From positions 1 through 64,000 of the forward strand of contig QEVG01000020.1 in the NCBI GenBank assembly GCA_003576905.1: DNA of 64,000 nt, in the 5' to 3' direction. Below the pieces are notes generated by a model. It was not told the DNA's origin and did no database searches. It was given only the letters and a program-made list of their open reading frames with translations. Positions within the stretch are counted from its first letter, which is position 1. Each line of letters starts with the position of its first letter. The translations under genes were made by a program, and so were the position numbers. The DNA comes from Planctomycetota bacterium (GTDB taxonomy: Bacteria > Planctomycetota > Phycisphaerae > UBA1845 > UTPLA1). Positions 17,484-39,753 of this stretch are shown piece by piece.

Positions 17484-20429
17484 CTACAGACCCAGCAGTA
17501 CGTCCACCATCGGCTGGATGTCGAGCCCGTTGACCGCCTCGTCGCAGTTCAGGTCGCTCCGCACCAGGTGCGCCGGGCTCATCGGCATTCCCACCAGCGC
17601 CGCGGTAAATGCGCTGACGTCGTCAAGGTCCTCGTCGAAGTCCTGATCGATGTCGACGCCGATGTTGCCGGGCGTGCTGGCGGCGTTGGCCGGGTCGCCG
17701 CACTGATCGAGTTCATCGCGATCGAAGTGGCCGTCGAGGTCGCGGTCGATCCCGATGCGCGTCTCCGAGCCCTTCGGGACGACGGTATAGGTAAGCTCGC
17801 TCCCCGGCGCGGCGCTCGCCTGAAGCGCGGCTGCGCTCATGGTTTCTGCCGCGCGATCGGACTGAAAGATATTTCCGCCGCTGTAGCGCCAGCCCCGCGC
17901 AACGCCCCCCTGCACGCCCTTGACGACGAGTCCGACCTTGTTGGTATTGGCGACCGCGATCATGTTCGAGATCAGCGTAAGCTGGCCCGGCTCCGGATTG
18001 CCCGCGTCGCGGAGCGTCGTCTGCCACCCGACCGCCGCGTGCGTGTCTTTTCCTGCGACGCCGGGCGGCTCCAGGGCCGTGCGCGGCGGAAAGTCGGACC
18101 CGCTGAAGGCCACCATGAGCGCGACGAGGTCCGCGGTCATCTGGTCCGACGTGACGTTGAACACCGGCTCGTTCAGGAACCGGGCGATCGAGTCCACGCT
18201 GCCGTCGTGCAGGTAGCCGAACCCCGCCGTGTTCATCAGCTGGGTCGTTTCGAAGCCGACCTTGTCATACTGGTTGCGAAGCTGGGGGACCTTCATGCTG
18301 ATGTTGGTCGAGCCGTCGACCGAAACCAGCGCCAGGTGCAGTTCGCCATTGGGTCCCGCAGGGATGTTCTGAAACGTAATGCCAACCAGGGCGGTGTTGG
18401 TGCCCGCGCCGGTCGGGAGGGTATGGCATGTCACGCAGTTGACACCATCCAGGCCGCCCGTGCGATACGCCGTCAGGCCGTTGACCGCGTTGCCGTTCGG
18501 GAGCGGCTGGCCGGCCGGCCCAAACCGCCCGGTCGTGTAGTGGCCCGGCAGCGCGAGACTGGTCGGAAGGGTGTTGTCGAAGTTCCGGTAGGGGTTGGGC
18601 GGGAAGTGAATCGTGGATAGAAAGCTCTCGAATTGCTGCATGTCGGCGGGCGGCAGCGGGCCGTCGGCGCCCTGAAGCACAAGGAACGCCTCGGCGAATT
18701 CCTCCAGGCCGTCGCGGTCGCCGCGCCAGTGATGCGGCTCTTTGCCGATGATGTCCTGAAGCGTTTGCGTGGTCATCGGCCCCTTCATGGGGTGCCAGTC
18801 CTGGCAGCCGCCGTCCGGGCAGTTCTGACAATCCGCGGAAGGGCAGCTTGTGCCCGAGTAATTGGTGAATTCCTTCATCTCGCCCGCCGGGTCGCCAAGG
18901 TCCCACGCCAGCCGGTCCATTCGCGCGTCAACGTGGCAGGATGCGCAGGCGATATGCCCCAGCCCGCTGTTGCGATGGGTGTCGTAGAGGTGCTTTCGGC
19001 CGCTCTTGACGGGAAGCGTCGTCGGATCGTGCAGCGGCACGCGCGGCAGAATCTCTGTTTCTGCTGTTGTGTCGATCGTCGATACCGTCGCGGCGAACTT
19101 GTTCAGGACATAGAGCCGGTCGCGTGCATCATCGAAGACAACCCCCGTCGGGCCCTCGCCGACCTCGATCGAATATGACAGGCCGGCGCGTCCGCCGGTC
19201 GAGTCGATCACGATGACGTTGTTTGACCCCATGCCGGTGACGTAGCCGCGCGAACCGTCGGCGTTCCAGGCGATGCCGCGCGGGTCGCCGATCGACAGGT
19301 CGCGGTCTTCCTGTGGGATCGGCACGAACGGAATGTCCGTGCCGTAGGTCAGGTGCGGATTCAGATCGGCGATATCGACGAGGGACGGCCCCGCGGGATC
19401 GACGCGAGCGAAGTTCACGCGGAGAAAGCGGCCGCGCAGGACCGGTTCGTAGCGGATCTCGTTGGTCGCGTCCGTCCCTACCATGGTCACTTCGCCGCTG
19501 GGATGAACGGCAAGCGCCATGCAGATGTTCATCGCGCCGGTGGCGTAGGATACGTCCAGCGTGGCCGCGTCAATGATCGCCACATCGTGATCGTAGAGGT
19601 CCCAGCCGACCGGTCTTCCCGAAAGCGCCGCCTGCGGGCCGCTGACCAGGTCGGTCCAGTCGCCGTTGTTGTCGTCGCGCCATTCGCCAAGGGCGTTTTT
19701 TCGGACGATCAACCCGACGGGCGGGGGCGGGGGATTCAGCAGATTTTGAGGCGGTTTGAAGTTCGCACCGTCGTTGGGCGGCGGGTTGACGCCGCCGTAC
19801 GGACCGGCCGGATCGCTGACCACGTTCGGCGGAAAACCGCCGCCGATGGTGCTGCCGCCACCGAGGATCGTTGAGCGATTGCCAGACTCAAAAACGGCTA
19901 CGTACACCTCGTTCCGCGCCGCGCTGTATGCCATCGCCCGCGGGTCTTCGCCGAGGATCGCGAGCCGGGTCGGTGCGGCGTCGAGATTCGCCGGATCGAA
20001 GACAAGCACGCTGTTTGCCGCGGAGCAGGAGACGAATGCCCGGACCGGCGCACCGCCGAAGACCACGTCGCACGGCTCGTCCTCGGTGCGCAGTGTTCGA
20101 ACAACGTTCATGGTGGAAAGACTGACGATGCTGACGTCGTCGGAGATATGGTTGATGACCCACGCTTCGTCGCTGGTTCGGGCGCGGACCGAAACGGGGT
20201 CCAGACCGACGGGTACGGCCCCCAGCTTGGCCGGGGCGCCGCCGGTAATGTCAAAGATTTCAAGCCGGTTGTCCGCCGTGTTCACCGCGAGCAGTTTCGT
20301 GCCGTCCGGCGTCATGTCCATCGGTCGGACGTGCGGCGTCTCCCAGTTCACGAAGGAAGACTGGGCGAACGCAGGAGCCCAGAGGGCAAGAATGGCCGCG
20401 GAAACGGGTCCGAGAAAATGTCGGGGCAT
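17484..20429 (-). CDS. Secreted beta-propeller di-haem cytochrome with dockerin-like C-terminus
   Basis: A 981-residue exported protein. After the signal peptide (MPRHFLGPVSAAILALWAPAFAQ) there is a YVTN/Lvp-type beta-propeller (about 30-470, motifs such as GLDPVSVRARTSDEAWV and VGEGPTGVVFDDARDRLYV). A cytochrome-c-peroxidase/MauG-like part follows with two CxxCH haem sites: CASCH at about 495 and CVTCH at about 664. The last 75 residues have an acidic dockerin-like repeat (DIDQDFDEDLDD, DLNCDEAVNGLDIQ). A Cys-rich stretch (CPSADCQNCPDGGC) lies between the haem sites. GGAGAGGA sets the start at 20429. It should act outside the cytoplasmic membrane in redox chemistry or peroxide handling. It stands alone between rnfD and a LOG-like gene. 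Confidence 0.88.
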   Translation of the reverse strand: MPRHFLGPVSAAILALWAPAFAQSSFVNWETPHVRPMDMTPDGTKLLAVNTADNRLEIFDITGGAPAKLGAVPVGLDPVSVRARTSDEAWVINHISDDVSIVSLSTMNVVRTLRTEDEPCDVVFGGAPVRAFVSCSAANSVLVFDPANLDAAPTRLAILGEDPRAMAYSAARNEVYVAVFESGNRSTILGGGSTIGGGFPPNVVSDPAGPYGGVNPPPNDGANFKPPQNLLNPPPPPVGLIVRKNALGEWRDDNNGDWTDLVSGPQAALSGRPVGWDLYDHDVAIIDAATLDVSYATGAMNICMALAVHPSGEVTMVGTDATNEIRYEPVLRGRFLRVNFARVDPAGPSLVDIADLNPHLTYGTDIPFVPIPQEDRDLSIGDPRGIAWNADGSRGYVTGMGSNNVIVIDSTGGRAGLSYSIEVGEGPTGVVFDDARDRLYVLNKFAATVSTIDTTAETEILPRVPLHDPTTLPVKSGRKHLYDTHRNSGLGHIACASCHVDARMDRLAWDLGDPAGEMKEFTNYSGTSCPSADCQNCPDGGCQDWHPMKGPMTTQTLQDIIGKEPHHWRGDRDGLEEFAEAFLVLQGADGPLPPADMQQFESFLSTIHFPPNPYRNFDNTLPTSLALPGHYTTGRFGPAGQPLPNGNAVNGLTAYRTGGLDGVNCVTCHTLPTGAGTNTALVGITFQNIPAGPNGELHLALVSVDGSTNISMKVPQLRNQYDKVGFETTQLMNTAGFGYLHDGSVDSIARFLNEPVFNVTSDQMTADLVALMVAFSGSDFPPRTALEPPGVAGKDTHAAVGWQTTLRDAGNPEPGQLTLISNMIAVANTNKVGLVVKGVQGGVARGWRYSGGNIFQSDRAAETMSAAALQASAAPGSELTYTVVPKGSETRIGIDRDLDGHFDRDELDQCGDPANAASTPGNIGVDIDQDFDEDLDDVSAFTAALVGMPMSPAHLVRSDLNCDEAVNGLDIQPMVDVLLGL

Positions 20430-33875: not shown

Positions 33876-34658
33876 TTACATTCTATGCCGGATCGCCCAC
33901 AAGTCCGCGAAGACCGGCTTGAAAAGCGAGGCCTTAAGGAACGGCACGCCGGGCGACCCGCCCGTTCCCTGCTTGCTGCCGATGGTGCGCTCGACGAGCT
34001 TCACGTGCCGATAGCGCCACTCCTGGACTCCTTCGTCAAAATCGGTCATCAACTCGAAAAGGATGGCGAGTTCGGGGTGCGAGCGGTAGAGCCGCAATAT
34101 CTCCTCTTGTACCTGCTCGTTCGGGGCATTGGCCTGGGACATATCGCGCGCTCGGATGGGCTCGGGGATTGCCGCGCCGCGCTGCTCGAGAAAATCGTAG
34201 AAATGATCGACAACGCTGCGCTGCCTCAGGCGCCGTTCGATCGCCGCGTGGCCCGGCGTGCCCGCCGGAAGGTACTTCAGCGTTTCGGGCCGCTTGTAGC
34301 CGAGGACGAACTCAAACTCGCGAAACTGCGTGGACTGAAAGCCGGACGCCGTCTCCAGCCGCTGGCGGAAGCTGCTGAAGGACATGGGGGTCATCGTTTC
34401 GAGGATATCGAGCTGTCCGACGAGCGTCTTCATGACCGTGCGGCATCGCTTGAAGGTGTGGATCGCCCCGTACAGGTCGTCGTTCGAAAAGTCGTGCTTG
34501 ATCTTATCGAGTTCGTGCAATAGCAGCTTGAACCAGAGTTCATACACCTGGTGGATGACGATGAACAGCATTTCGTCGTGCTCCGGCGGCGTGGAACGCG
34601 GCTGCTGAAGCTTGAGCATTTCCTCAAGACGCAGGTAGTCGGTATAGGTGAGCGACAT
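33876..34658 (-). CDS. kynA: Tryptophan 2,3-dioxygenase
   Basis: Haem-dependent TDO, 260 residues, which opens the indole ring of L-Trp to N-formylkynurenine, the first step of the kynurenine pathway. Family blocks: LTYTDYLRLEEML, IHQVYELWFKLLLHELD (haem and substrate pocket) and SGFQSTQFREFEFVLGY (substrate-binding Arg). GGAG precedes the ATG. It lies 48 bp after kmo on the same strand. The arylformamidase that should act next is not in the window. Confidence 0.95.
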   Translation of the reverse strand: MSLTYTDYLRLEEMLKLQQPRSTPPEHDEMLFIVIHQVYELWFKLLLHELDKIKHDFSNDDLYGAIHTFKRCRTVMKTLVGQLDILETMTPMSFSSFRQRLETASGFQSTQFREFEFVLGYKRPETLKYLPAGTPGHAAIERRLRQRSVVDHFYDFLEQRGAAIPEPIRARDMSQANAPNEQVQEEILRLYRSHPELAILFELMTDFDEGVQEWRYRHVKLVERTIGSKQGTGGSPGVPFLKASLFKPVFADLWAIRHRM

Positions 34659-34706
34659 GTTGACTCCATTCCCCGTCGGGGTAGCTTTTCGCGCGGAACG
34701 GTCGGG

Positions 34707-36143
34707 CTACTTCTCCCTCAATCGTCTCTTCCTCGCGGCGCGGACGACCAGGATCGCCGCACCGGTATACATGATTGTCGCGCCGGCCAGCACGGCGGGG
34801 ACCACTTCCGTTTGTCCCGCGATGAACAGCGTGGCCGCCATGATCGCCGTCGCGAGCAGCGCAGCCACGACGCATACCCAGACGTCCTGCTTCCGCGCCC
34901 GCTTCACGGCCTCCGCGTAGGGAGTACGCGTGAAGGCGACCATGGTGTACAGCGGCGTGTAAACGCCCGGCAGGCAGGCGTGCAGCGTCCGCTCGAGTCT
35001 CTTGCGCCAGCGAAACGTCTTCGAGGCCGTCTTGTCGCGCATCTCGTAGAAGTTCTCGACGGCGAGCGTGGCAAGCGCGTCGCAATTCGGCTTGCGCCGC
35101 CTCTCATATTCGACAAGCGCCCGTTCCCAGTTCGGCGCATGCTCCCTCAGGCATTCATCGAGCACGATGCAATCCTCGAACGCCGCGTTCGCTCCCTGCC
35201 CGTAGAACGGAACGACCGCATGGGCCGCGTCGCCGAGCAGCGCCACCTTGCCGCCAAGATGCCACGGCCCGCAGCGAACGGTCATCATCGATCCGACCGG
35301 ATTGGCGTGGTAGTCCTCCAGGAGCGTAGGCATCATGGACACTGCGTCGGGAAACGAACGGTCGAAGAACCGGCGGATTTCGTCATCGGACCCAAGTGCC
35401 GCGAAGCTCTCGGGACCTTCAAACGGGTAGAAGAGCGTGCATGTAAAAGAGCCGTCCGGGTTGGGCAGTGCGATCATCATGTACCGCCGCCGGGGCCAGA
35501 TATGCAGCGCGTTTCTCTCCATGCGGAACCCCCCGCCCGCGTCCGGTGGGATCGTCAGCTCCTTGTACCCGTGGCGCAGATAGTCCTGCGAGTAGTTGAA
35601 ACGGTCGAGCCGCTGCATGCTGCGCCGGACGGCCGAGAAGGCGCCGTCCACGCCAATGAGAATATCGCCGGCCGCGTCGACGGGCTGCTGTGTCTCTGTG
35701 TGGACCAGCTTCGCCGACGGACGATCGAGGTCCGCCTCAACGCAGCGATGGTTGAAGTGGACGCGCACATTCGGATACACCTGTGCCGCGCGCAGCGTTG
35801 TGCTGTTCAGCGCCGCCCGGCCGATGGAATTGATGCAGCAGCCAGGATCCTTGTCGTAGGGCTGAAAGTGGAGTTCGCCACGCGGACCGTGGATCATCCG
35901 GCCGCGCATGGGTATCGCATGTTTCAGCACTTCCTCCGCAAGCCCGACGCGCTCCAGCGCCGCGATTCCGCGCGTCGACAATGCGAGATTGATCGACCGT
36001 CCCCCGACGAAGTTTCCTGCGTTCGGGTCGGCCCGGCGCTCGTACAGGTCCACCTCGTAGCCCGCCTTGCCAAGGTACGCGGCCAATAGACCGCCGGCCA
36101 GCCCGGAGCCGATCAGAGTGAACCTGGGTTGCGCGTGTGACAT
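34707..36143 (-). CDS. kmo: Kynurenine 3-monooxygenase
   Basis: FAD-dependent hydroxylase, 478 residues, which turns kynurenine into 3-hydroxykynurenine using NADPH and oxygen. N-terminal Rossmann FAD motif GSGLAGGLLAAYLGKAG, the central GGRSINLALS, and the second FAD motif GDAAHAVVPFYGQGANAAFED near residue 310 are intact. Like mitochondrial KMO it has C-terminal hydrophobic helices (about 415-465, VWVCVVAALLATAIMAATLF and a second), so it is probably membrane-anchored. It is the first gene of the kmo-kynA unit, and its leader contains a stable hairpin at 36208. Confidence 0.95.
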   Translation of the reverse strand: MSHAQPRFTLIGSGLAGGLLAAYLGKAGYEVDLYERRADPNAGNFVGGRSINLALSTRGIAALERVGLAEEVLKHAIPMRGRMIHGPRGELHFQPYDKDPGCCINSIGRAALNSTTLRAAQVYPNVRVHFNHRCVEADLDRPSAKLVHTETQQPVDAAGDILIGVDGAFSAVRRSMQRLDRFNYSQDYLRHGYKELTIPPDAGGGFRMERNALHIWPRRRYMMIALPNPDGSFTCTLFYPFEGPESFAALGSDDEIRRFFDRSFPDAVSMMPTLLEDYHANPVGSMMTVRCGPWHLGGKVALLGDAAHAVVPFYGQGANAAFEDCIVLDECLREHAPNWERALVEYERRRKPNCDALATLAVENFYEMRDKTASKTFRWRKRLERTLHACLPGVYTPLYTMVAFTRTPYAEAVKRARKQDVWVCVVAALLATAIMAATLFIAGQTEVVPAVLAGATIMYTGAAILVVRAARKRRLREK

Positions 36144-36207
36144 GATTGGGGGCCGCCGGTCCTGTTCGTGTGCCGGGCGTCCCGGCGGGTCGCTGTTAGG
36201 TTGTGCC

Positions 36208-36229
36208 TCCCGCTCCCGTGGGGGCGGGA
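36208..36229. promoter_or_regulatory. GC-rich hairpin between marR and kmo
   Basis: A 9-bp stem (36208-36216 with 36221-36229, one G-U) with a 4-nt loop lies between the marR stop and the kmo start. It lacks a U-run on either strand. It could reduce read-through from marR into kmo or act as a leader structure. Confidence 0.45.
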
Positions 36230-36235
36230 CCCTAT

Positions 36236-36709
36236 TTAACGCGACCCGTCTTCGGCCGCCAAGCCGGGCCGGATTGACGCGTCGATGATGTCGAGCGCCC
36301 GCGAAAGAGCGGCCAGTTCGCCCGGCTTTAACCGGCGTATCACACCTGCGAGCCGCGACACGCGCCGGGCCCGGCCGGCCATGAGAATGCGCCTGCCCTT
36401 CGCCGTGGCCGAGAGCCGGATAACCCGGCGGTCGGCACGGTCGCGCGTCCGGCGCGCAAGGCCGGCCGCCACCAGCCGGCCGACGACCCGTGTCACGGTC
36501 GGGGGGCGGACCTGCTCCGCGCGGGCCAGTTCACCAAGGGTAAGCGGTCCGCCGAAGACGAGCACCGAAAGCGCCGACAGCAGCGGGGCGGGCAGGGCGG
36601 TCGCGTCGTCCTCGCGGCGCAGGCGGCGCAGGATGTGAATCGTTGCCGTGTGCAGCCGGTCGGCGACGCAAACGGGATCGGTCGGGTTTCTGCTTGCACG
36701 CGGCGGCAT
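36236..36709 (-). CDS. MarR family transcriptional regulator
   Basis: A 157-residue winged-helix regulator. After a short N-terminal helix (VADRLHTATIHILRRLRRED) come the DNA-binding segment LTLGELARAEQVRPPTVTRVVGRLVAAGLARRT (recognition helix around PPTVTRVVGRLV), the wing RDRADRRVIRLSATAKGRRIL and a C-terminal dimerisation helix. The start at 36709 fits the family length. An in-frame extension would read through the divergent promoter. It sits between the kmo-kynA and ank-kynU units and a palindrome lies 18 nt upstream of its start, so it probably represses the kynurenine genes and itself. The inducer is likely a pathway intermediate, which is inference. Confidence 0.9.
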   Translation of the reverse strand: MPPRASRNPTDPVCVADRLHTATIHILRRLRREDDATALPAPLLSALSVLVFGGPLTLGELARAEQVRPPTVTRVVGRLVAAGLARRTRDRADRRVIRLSATAKGRRILMAGRARRVSRLAGVIRRLKPGELAALSRALDIIDASIRPGLAAEDGSR

Positions 36710-36739
36710 GGGGTCTCTATAATTGGTTAGCGCAGCTAA
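36694..36739 (+). promoter_or_regulatory. Promoter and MarR-type operator of ank-kynU
   Basis: TTGCAC (36694-36699), 18 nt, then a perfect TATAAT (36718-36723) make a sigma-70-like promoter reading towards the ankyrin gene. At 36727-36739 lies the inverted repeat TTAGC-GCA-GCTAA (5-bp arms), which would cover the transcription start. Bound MarR protein would block this promoter, and it also lies just before the divergent marR start. Confidence 0.65.
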
Positions 36740-36776
36740 GTAATCGGGCATCCCCATTATAGACGGAGATAACAGG

Positions 36777-37436
36777 ATGACTACCTCTTCCTCCGCGTTT
36801 GACGCCGTAAAGTCCGGAGACCTCGACGGGCTCAAGTCCATTCTCGCCTCCGACCCCGGTGTGGCGCGCGAGCGCAACGAGCAGGGCCAGTCGCTCGTGA
36901 CATGGGCGGCGTACTTCCGCCGGCGCGACATGCTGGACGCGGTGCTTGCTGCCGATCCGCCGCTTGATATCTTTGAGGCCGCGCTGGCCGGCTGCGTCGC
37001 CCGCGTGGCGGAACTTCTCGCCGCAGAAGAATCGCTCGCCCGGGCCTGTTCTTCCGACGGCTTTAGCGCCCTTCATCTTGCGGCCTTTTTCGGCCACGAC
37101 GGCGTGGCCGAACTTCTTCTGGAGCACGGCGCCGATCCCGACGCGATCTCCCGGAACGCGATGGGTCTTTGCCCCCTTCACACGGCCGCGAATTTCGGCA
37201 GCCGCGGAGTCGCGCGGCTCCTTCTCGAGAACGGCGCCGAGGTCAACGCCCGGCAGCAAGGCGGATTCGCACCGATCCACGCCGCCGCGAATAACGGTGA
37301 CCTTGAAATGCTTCGCCTGCTCATCGCGCACGGCGCCGATGTCGACGCCCGGACCAACGACGGCAAGACGCCCGCGGACATGGCGGCACAAAAGGGTCAT
37401 AATGAAGCGGCGACCCTTCTGCGAAACGCAGTCTGA
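36777..37436 (+). CDS. Ankyrin-repeat protein in the kynurenine cluster
   Basis: A 219-residue soluble protein made of about five or six ankyrin repeats, for example DGFSALHLAAFFGHDGVAELLLEHGADPD and GGFAPIHAAANNGDLEMLRLLIAHGADVD. No signal peptide or enzymatic motif is present, so it should act by protein binding in the cytoplasm. GGAG lies 11 nt before the ATG. It is the first gene after the shared promoter, 46 bp ahead of kynU, and so is co-expressed with the pathway. Its role there is unknown. Confidence 0.92.
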   Translation: MTTSSSAFDAVKSGDLDGLKSILASDPGVARERNEQGQSLVTWAAYFRRRDMLDAVLAADPPLDIFEAALAGCVARVAELLAAEESLARACSSDGFSALHLAAFFGHDGVAELLLEHGADPDAISRNAMGLCPLHTAANFGSRGVARLLLENGAEVNARQQGGFAPIHAAANNGDLEMLRLLIAHGADVDARTNDGKTPADMAAQKGHNEAATLLRNAV

Positions 37437-37482
37437 CTCCGTTGTTTGGCGTCCCATTGGCCTGCGGATATGCTGATACGCC

Positions 37483-38778
37483 ATGTCCACCGCGTTCGGC
37501 CCGCAATCCATGACGTACTCCACCGACGAATCCTTCGCGCATGATCTGGACGCGAAGGACCCGCTGCGCGGTTACCGCGATCGTTTCCACGTCCCGCTCG
37601 ACAGGACGGGCAAGCCGGTCATCTATTTCTGCGGCAATTCGCTCGGGCTCATGCCCAGGGCCGCGCGCGAGGCCGTCACCCAGGAACTCGACGACTGGGC
37701 CGGCCTCGGCGTCGACGCCCATTTCGAAGGCCGCTCCCCCTGGTACAGCTACCACGAGCAGTTTCGCGAAGTCGGCGCCCGCCTGGTCGGAGCGCGACCG
37801 GGCGAAGTGGTCATGATGAACAGCCTCACGGTGAATCTGCACCTGATGATGGCCACTTTCTACCGGCCCACGCGGCGGCGATACAAGATCCTGATGGACT
37901 GGCCCGCATTCCCGTCCGACATCTACGCGGCGCGAAGCCAGACCGGCATGCACCGATTCGACCCGAACGACGCCATCATCTATGTCAAACCCCGTGACGG
38001 GGAACACAGCATCCGTCCGCGCGACATAGAGTCCATCCTTGAGGATCACGGTGACATGATCGCCCTTGTCCTCCTGTCCGGCGTGAATTTCTTCACCGGC
38101 CAGTTCTACGACGTTGGCCGCCTTGCCGAGACGGCGCGGCGCGAGGGCTGCGTGGTCGGGCTCGATCTGGCCCACGCCGCGGGCAACGTATCCCTTTCCC
38201 TGCACGACTGGGGCGTCGATTTTGCCGTGTGGTGCAGCTACAAGTACCTGAACAGCGGGCCGGGGGCCGTGGCCGGCTGTTTCGTGCATGAGCGGCACGC
38301 CGGCAATCCCGACCTTCCGCGTCTCGCCGGCTGGTGGGGAAATGACCCGAAGACGCGCTTCCTCATGCATCTTCAGCCGGAGTTCGTTCCAGTAGCCAGT
38401 GCTGAAGCCTGGCAGATCAGCAATCCGCCCATCCTCTCGATGGCGCCGCTGCGAACGTCACTTCAGATTTTTGATGAGGCCGGTATGCCCGCGCTGCGGG
38501 CCAAGTCCGAGCTGCTCACCGGCTACCTGCGCTTCCTGATCGGCCAGATGCCGTCGGACCGGTACGAGATCATCACGCCGAAGGACCCCCGTCAGCACGG
38601 CTGCCAGCTCTCCATCCTCGCGGGGGCGCATCCGAAGGAACTGTTTAAGAGGCTCGACGCAGCCGGAGTAAAGGGGGATTTTCGGGAACCGAATGTGATC
38701 CGCGTTGCGCCGGTGCCGTTGTATAACACGTTTCACGAGGTCTGGCGCTTCGCGCAGATTTTGCGCCTTCACGCCTGA
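37483..38778 (+). CDS. kynU: Kynureninase
   Basis: PLP-dependent hydrolase, 431 residues, which cleaves 3-hydroxykynurenine (or kynurenine) to 3-hydroxyanthranilate (or anthranilate) and alanine. N-terminal FCGNSLGLMPRAAR, the PLP region GLDLAHAAGNVSLSLHDW, and the Schiff-base Lys in WCSYKYLNSGPG are present, and the C-terminal HGCQLSI domain is complete. With kynA and kmo it forms most of the eukaryotic-type route from Trp to 3-hydroxyanthranilate. Enzymes for the later steps to quinolinate are not in the window. Confidence 0.95.
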   Translation: MSTAFGPQSMTYSTDESFAHDLDAKDPLRGYRDRFHVPLDRTGKPVIYFCGNSLGLMPRAAREAVTQELDDWAGLGVDAHFEGRSPWYSYHEQFREVGARLVGARPGEVVMMNSLTVNLHLMMATFYRPTRRRYKILMDWPAFPSDIYAARSQTGMHRFDPNDAIIYVKPRDGEHSIRPRDIESILEDHGDMIALVLLSGVNFFTGQFYDVGRLAETARREGCVVGLDLAHAAGNVSLSLHDWGVDFAVWCSYKYLNSGPGAVAGCFVHERHAGNPDLPRLAGWWGNDPKTRFLMHLQPEFVPVASAEAWQISNPPILSMAPLRTSLQIFDEAGMPALRAKSELLTGYLRFLIGQMPSDRYEIITPKDPRQHGCQLSILAGAHPKELFKRLDAAGVKGDFREPNVIRVAPVPLYNTFHEVWRFAQILRLHA

Positions 38779-39009: not shown

Positions 39010-39753
39010 ATGATGCGGCATCGAATTCTCTTCAGCCTGATCCTGCTTGGTATTGCCGGCGTGGCGGGGTGCGCGTCTCCCAAGCGGTGAGCCGGCGGCT
39101 CCTGCGAACCCCAGTTTGGGGATCTCAACTTCTTCCAGAACTGGTTCCGCAGCGCTGAACCCATCCAGATGACCGAGGTCAGTGGTTCGGCGTTTTCCAA
39201 ACCCGTCCAGCGATCGACCGTTCGCCGGCCCATCAGCCAGGCTCCGGCCCGGCCGCGCAGCGCCGGCTCCTACGCCGCGCCGCCGCAGCGCCGGCCGTCG
39301 GCGTCCTATTGGGAAAAACTGCGACAGACCAACTCGGCCCCCAAGCGCGCTGCCGTATCAACGGCCGGGCGAACGGCGGCCGTCGCGCCGCCTGCCTCGC
39401 GACGCCCGGCCAATCCGCCGCCACCGCGCCGCACGACGACGGCCGCGATCAGCGCGAAAAAGCGGTGACACGGCAAATCATGCGAGCCTCAGTTTGAGGT
39501 TCCCGGCAATCTGTTACGCGGCGACGGTTCCTTTGAGATGACGGCAACACGAAAAACGGGCGGCGGCGATTGGTTCGCCTCACAGCCCGCCGCCACGCGT
39601 TTGCGCCTTTCGCAGCCGGTCCCGTCGTCCAGTCGCCCGGTGCCTTCGTTTTACTCGTCCGCGCGGCCGGTCTCACATGTTTCGCCCTCCGCGACGCCGG
39701 TCTCTTCGCAATCGATGTGCCCCGCGCCGATGCCGATGTCCCCCGTGCGCTAA
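39010..39753 (+). CDS. Candidate selenoprotein: lipoprotein with two in-frame UGA codons
   Basis: One continuous frame of 247 codons from ATG 39010 to TAA 39751 is interrupted only by TGA at 39088 and TGA at 39466. It starts with a lipoprotein signal (MMRHRILFSLILLGIAG, lipobox VAGC). Both UGAs are preceded by AAG CGG and followed by x-G-x-S-C-E-P-Q-F, so the protein would be two related segments, each opening KR-U-xGxSCEPQF. Third codon positions are GC-rich across both UGAs, which supports translation through them. Each UGA is followed after exactly 23 nt by a hairpin (separate entries). The rest is basic and Pro/Ser-rich (for example RRPANPPPPRR). The ribosome site is weak. No selenoprotein family is recognised. 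The alternative is a decayed gene. Confidence 0.5.
39106..39124 (+). promoter_or_regulatory. SECIS-like hairpin 1
   Basis: Stem CCCCA (39109-39113) with TGGGG (39117-39121), loop GTT, extended by G-C and A-T pairs beyond an A-A mismatch. The loop starts 23 nt after TGA 39088. Spacing, stem length and a G at the start of the loop fit the loose bacterial SECIS rules as I recall them. A bulged U in the stem, as in E. coli fdhF, is not seen. Confidence 0.5.
39484..39502 (+). promoter_or_regulatory. SECIS-like hairpin 2
   Basis: Stem GAGCCTCA (39484-39491) with TGAGGTTC (39495-39502), one G-U pair, loop GTT, again starting 23 nt after its TGA (39466). Compared with hairpin 1, the third pair of the inner stem changes from C-G to U-A on both sides, so pairing is kept while the second change also alters the amino acid (Gly to Glu). 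Confidence 0.5.

Follow-up and report, generated by a model that had tools for sequence, protein, structure and literature searches.

A candidate selenoprotein gene of an undescribed family: a predicted lipoprotein with two in-frame UGA codons, each followed by a SECIS-like hairpin, in a planctomycete

A 2026 catalogue lists about 119 families or subfamilies of prokaryotic selenoproteins, most of them with one selenocysteine (Sec), and many of these families belong to conserved, often thioredoxin-like, redox folds (PMC13188914). Proteins with two Sec are found in MbdU (NF045648), MduS and TsoB (PMC13188914 Table 1). The hairpins that accompany the UGA in bacteria (bSECIS) have a loop of 3-9 nt with a G in the first two positions and a stem of 4-16 bp, lie 16-37 nt after the UGA and have a minimum free energy of at most -7.5 kcal/mol (PMC13188914). 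Here we describe a frame on the plus strand, at 39010..39753 of the window (the whole stretch of 64,000 nt that was analysed), which is very probably a selenoprotein gene of an undescribed family, with a lipid-anchored product that would contain two Sec.

The frame runs from an ATG to a TAA, starts with MMRHRILFSLILLGIAGVAGC and would encode 247 residues. When it was re-read, the TGAs at 39088 and 39466 were the only internal stops, as the preliminary description of this DNA had it. The signal peptide MMRHRILFSLILLGIAGVAGC (39010..39072) ends in the lipobox V-A-G-C; this was read by eye as MMRHRILFSLILLGIAGVAG-C with the Cys at +1, and by the established lipobox rule Cys21 is predicted to be lipidated. 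The surface location of the protein is likewise predicted, from the signal sequence. A lipoprotein with a similar start, GCATEKRHCGEKC, was seen at a match in another genome of the order (L019, G056:C45, position 1501), and reads as a chance likeness of lipoprotein N-termini. A simple scan detected no promoter-like or terminator-like site.

The two TGAs lie in two copies of one module. Copy 1 (39082..39124) consists of KR-U27-AGGSCEPQF plus a hairpin, with the UGA at 39088..39090 read as Sec27, and copy 2 (39460..39502) consists of KR-U153-HGKSCEPQF plus a hairpin, with the UGA at 39466..39468 read as Sec153. Thus, the residues K-R-U-x-G-x-S-C-E-P-Q-F are common to both. At the DNA level the copies form a direct repeat of 43 nt (77% identical), which begins two codons before the TGA and extends no further than the foot of the hairpin. 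Three base changes fall inside SCEPQF and all are synonymous, while the residue changes occur outside it. When all 1,247,410 pairings of TGA contexts from the window were compared, the pair 39088/39466 ranked first with 27/36 identical positions (the next has 24/36). The recurrence of x-G-x-S-C-E-P-Q-F at both TGAs, noted previously, is confirmed. A degenerate pattern of the repeat with up to three mismatches matched these two sites only in the window, where 0 matches were expected. Between the modules lies a Pro/Arg/Ala/Ser-rich linker of low predicted order (39151..39459, pLDDT mostly 42-61), and a Ser/Pro-rich C-terminal tail (39526..39750), also of low predicted order and with a weak coding signal, follows the second module.

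Folding showed a GUU triloop 23 nt past each TGA, with closing stems CCCCA/UGGGG in the first and CCUCA/UGAGG in the second hairpin. In the case of hairpin 1, the core CCCCA-GUU-UGGGG (39109..39121) has 5 pairs and 2 more past an A/A mismatch (-8.7 kcal/mol); in the case of hairpin 2, GAGCCUCA-GUU-UGAGGUUC (39484..39502), the stem has 8 pairs (-10.6 kcal/mol). One base pair of the stem covaries between the two, from C-G to U-A: the change on one side is synonymous (CCC/CCT) and the change on the other is non-synonymous (GGG/GAG). Both hairpins lie within the bSECIS limits with their GUU loop, stems of 5 and 8 bp and spacing of 23 nt. The preliminary description had proposed exactly this spacing, a compensatory change with one non-synonymous half and a SECIS-like character; folding reproduced the first, the second is real and the third agrees with the published bacterial SECIS constraints (PMC13188914). 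The folding energy alone is not unusual against shuffled sequences for either hairpin (z about -1 to -2.6).

To describe the coding signal, a codon model was built on 991 long ORFs from this genome. The resulting score shows clear coding past the first UGA, a moderate signal from there to the second UGA and a weak one in the tail, with values of about zero over the second half of the frame. Thus, of the earlier claim that coding extends across both UGAs, the part concerning 39088 stands clearly, whereas continuation past 39466 is weaker. When only synonymous codon choice is scored, the ORF frame outranks the other two plus frames in each of the three segments delimited by the TGAs (3.1, 24.2 and 7.6 bits). 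The Ser/Pro-rich tail is the least certain part of the gene, because one antisense frame reaches 8.9 bits in the last segment, slightly above the 7.6 bits of the ORF frame. Absence of TAA and TAG over 248 codons is uninformative in this GC-rich DNA, since 39% of plus-strand segments drawn at random from the window share this property. Coding score by itself was useless for ranking TGAs, as shadow frames dominate in this GC-rich genome.

A reading of UGA as Sec depends on the corresponding machinery, whose absence would have counted against the preliminary description. The source assembly (4.71 Mb in 65 contigs, 97% complete) contains SelA (454 bits), the C-terminal part of SelB (its last 415 residues only) immediately upstream of selA, a tRNA-Sec with a UCA anticodon (66 bits) and SelD (TIGR00476, 360 bits) with an in-frame TGA near the N-terminus, which is where Sec is located in Sec-type SelD proteins. 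Therefore, the organism is equipped for decoding UGA as Sec. SelA was found in 16 of the 17 genomes of the family, and by our own count SelD with an in-frame TGA was also found in 16 of 17. Formate dehydrogenase matches were checked as a possible further selenoprotein and carried no in-frame TGA.

The same type of hairpin was then sought elsewhere in the genome. The scan covered 2.39 Mb of the 4.71 Mb (about 2.3 Mb in pieces, plus the window and other loci) and considered TGAs with no TAA or TAG within 40 codons on either side, followed 16-37 nt downstream by a GUU-triloop hairpin of at least 5 pairs. Such a hairpin followed 36 of 40,389 TGAs; after TGC, TGG, CGA, TCA, GGA and TAC it occurred in 0.05-0.09% of cases, which gives the chance background. 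Four of the 36 sites look coding on both sides: one in a peroxiredoxin-like gene, the two of the window and a doubtful site in L172. The peroxiredoxin-like gene (L149, G000:C9, 1252-2028) has its TGA at 1681 with the hairpin 21 nt after it, and its protein matches PF00578 (AhpC-TSA, E 1.2e-25) and reads ...VLLVFYRGHWUAACVTEL..., with the active-site stretch YRGHWUAAC. It is likely a further selenoprotein of this genome; a hydrophobic segment was read at its N-terminus. The TGA of SelD (L261, G000:C48, position 1531) likewise has a GUU-triloop hairpin, 33 nt downstream, which is the best fold with 48 nt and not with 54 nt; the N-terminal side of this site falls just under the coding score cut. 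Taken together, the hairpins of SelD, of the peroxiredoxin and of the two window sites all have a G-first triloop, a spacing of 21-33 nt and energies of -8.7 to -11.1 kcal/mol, and all four are within the bSECIS limits for loop, stem, spacing and energy (PMC13188914). The two modules of the window are not independent hits, because one is a duplicate of the other; they amount to a single hit with one covarying copy. The L172 site (minus strand, position 18985 on that strand) is a TGA after a membrane-protein-like frame, and the GUU-triloop hairpin 23 nt behind it is long, with 11 pairs; this TGA may be an ordinary stop or may mark another selenoprotein. The bases directly after the four other UGAs are alike (TGAGCCGGC in SelD and at 39088, TGAGCGGC in the peroxiredoxin and TGACACGGC at 39466), by chance or through a context preference. 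A GUU-triloop hairpin common to three genes thus offers a genome-specific rule for finding more.

Searches for relatives of the protein gave no homologue. A peptide-pattern scan of 84,980 species genomes was negative, as was tblastn against 101 relatives and 392 genomes of the phylum, where weak matches fell mostly in Pro/Arg/Ser-rich low-complexity parts. Neither did we find a homologue in the two genomes of the same genus, in the order with a degenerate DNA motif carrying UGA or Cys, or in viral contigs, phages and plasmids. The degenerate motif produced three matches over all species genomes, which lie in other proteins or frames and were judged to be chance; a looser motif gave about five matches per genome in the family, and those examined were in shadow frames. 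Profiles of Pfam, NCBIfam and PHROG gave no match above cut-off, so that no NCBIfam or Pfam profile places the protein in a known selenoprotein family, and the PDB gave no match of note. On present evidence the gene is an orphan known from a single species. The main weakness of the analysis follows from this: as the collections searched contain no homologue, there is no UGA or Cys to align, and the usual aligned Sec/Cys test is removed.

The surroundings of the gene contain kynurenine-pathway-like genes at 33876-38778 (tryptophan dioxygenase-like, kynurenine monooxygenase-like and kynureninase-like, named from sequence). In the relatives displayed, the genes that follow kynU are arranged differently. 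Directly after kynU, genome G002 of the same genus has the monooxygenase-like gene, a place that is taken here by the orphan lipoprotein.

Several other explanations of the frame have to be weighed. Only the first UGA and the first half might form a functional selenoprotein, in which case the second module and the tail would be a duplicate in decay or an extension that is seldom made. The near-zero coding score of the second half and the low complexity of the tail are what one would expect in such a case; however, hairpin 2 is the better of the two (8 bp, -10.6 kcal/mol), its covariation implies maintenance, the changes in SCEPQF are synonymous and, by synonymous codons, the ORF frame is still the best-scoring plus frame in the last segment. 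We regard this explanation as improbable.

It is more doubtful still that the locus is a pseudogene or that its TGAs are ordinary stops, so that a lipopeptide of 26 residues would end at 39088 and the remainder would stay untranslated in frame. The coding signal carries on past the first UGA, the identical UGA-centred motif occurs twice with synonymous differences, and both UGAs are followed by the type of hairpin found in selenoprotein genes of this genome, which weighs more than the orphan status of the gene, the use of TGA as the normal stop in most genes here and the frequency of TAA/TAG-free frames in GC-rich DNA (the 39% of random segments given above). Finally, as the likeness is at the DNA level and ends with the hairpin, the repeat could be conceived as a non-coding RNA or DNA element, such as a small hairpin repeat, that lies in an open frame by chance. 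This seems hardly credible, as the window contains two copies only, the whole genome yielded no third match of the related motif at a coding site, no Rfam family reached threshold, and the changes preserve both codons and reading frame.

A two-Sec lipoprotein is thus very probably the correct reading, and the preliminary proposal of two selenocysteines in KR-U-xGxSC repeats of a lipoprotein gains support from the Sec machinery and from the hairpin type of the genome. In this mechanism, SelB with Sec-tRNA(Sec) would decode both UGAs, each under the direction of a separate GUU-triloop SECIS some 23 nt further on, and the product would be exported and lipid-anchored at Cys21. This would place one KR-U-x-G-x-S-C site beside the membrane, with Sec27 six residues from the lipid, and the other about 126 residues further out, with Sec153 past the flexible Pro/Arg/Ala/Ser-rich linker. 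Since the DNA similarity covers exactly the stretch of codon context, redox motif and SECIS, the second site is probably a duplicate of this entire module.

The Sec of each module and the Cys that follows it five residues later would probably form a selenenylsulfide/dithiol-like pair, which may react with peroxides or thiols in redox chemistry or may bind soft metal ions in the envelope. A single-sequence structure model of low confidence (mean pLDDT 53.5) places each U-x-G-x-S-C on a short beta hairpin in which U faces C (U27/C32 and U153/C158), with low-confidence strands at 26-28/31-33 and 148-154/157-163. The facing U and C in both copies suggest a selenenylsulfide pair, and for this reason the role is probably that of a lipid-anchored selenol/thiol for redox or ligand (soft-metal) binding in the envelope. 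Regarding its origin, we give about even chances to the view that a compact 43-nt module of UGA, redox motif and SECIS was duplicated within a young, species-specific and largely disordered lipoprotein. If true, selenoproteins could arise de novo outside known folds, here with two independent Sec sites at the cell surface. An orphan and apparently disordered lipoprotein with two Sec would also imply that selenoproteins can be young and species-specific, and that searches based on conservation miss them by design.

To the extent that sequence allows a test, the gene behaves like one for a selenoprotein, and it can be compared with several known systems. The Sec-containing SelD of the same genome shares with it an in-frame UGA and a GUU-triloop hairpin, and has a similar context, TGAGCCGGC, and similar residues, U-A-G-K; however, SelD, a conserved enzyme, has a single Sec, in UxxK, and its loop lies 33 nt after the UGA versus 23 nt in the window gene. 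The Sec peroxiredoxin-like protein (PF00578) resembles the window protein in its GUU-triloop hairpin (21 nt) and in the N-terminal hydrophobic segment of both, but has a recognisable AhpC/TSA fold and UxxC, whereas Pfam, NCBIfam and PHROG gave no family above cut-off for the window protein. A short Sec...SC motif also occurs in the UGSC-containing protein NF041046 (PMC13188914 Table 1); its spacing is UGSC and not U-x-G-x-S-C, and NCBIfam gave no match for the window protein. MbdU, MduS and TsoB are similar in having two Sec per protein, and the UxxxxU of TsoB has the same spacing as the U-x4-C described here, but these proteins have family models of their own, none of them is listed with UxGxSC (PMC13188914 Table 1), and the window protein matched none of the catalogued families. 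Overall, the window protein most likely represents a two-Sec family with a UxGxSC motif that stands outside the known selenoprotein families.
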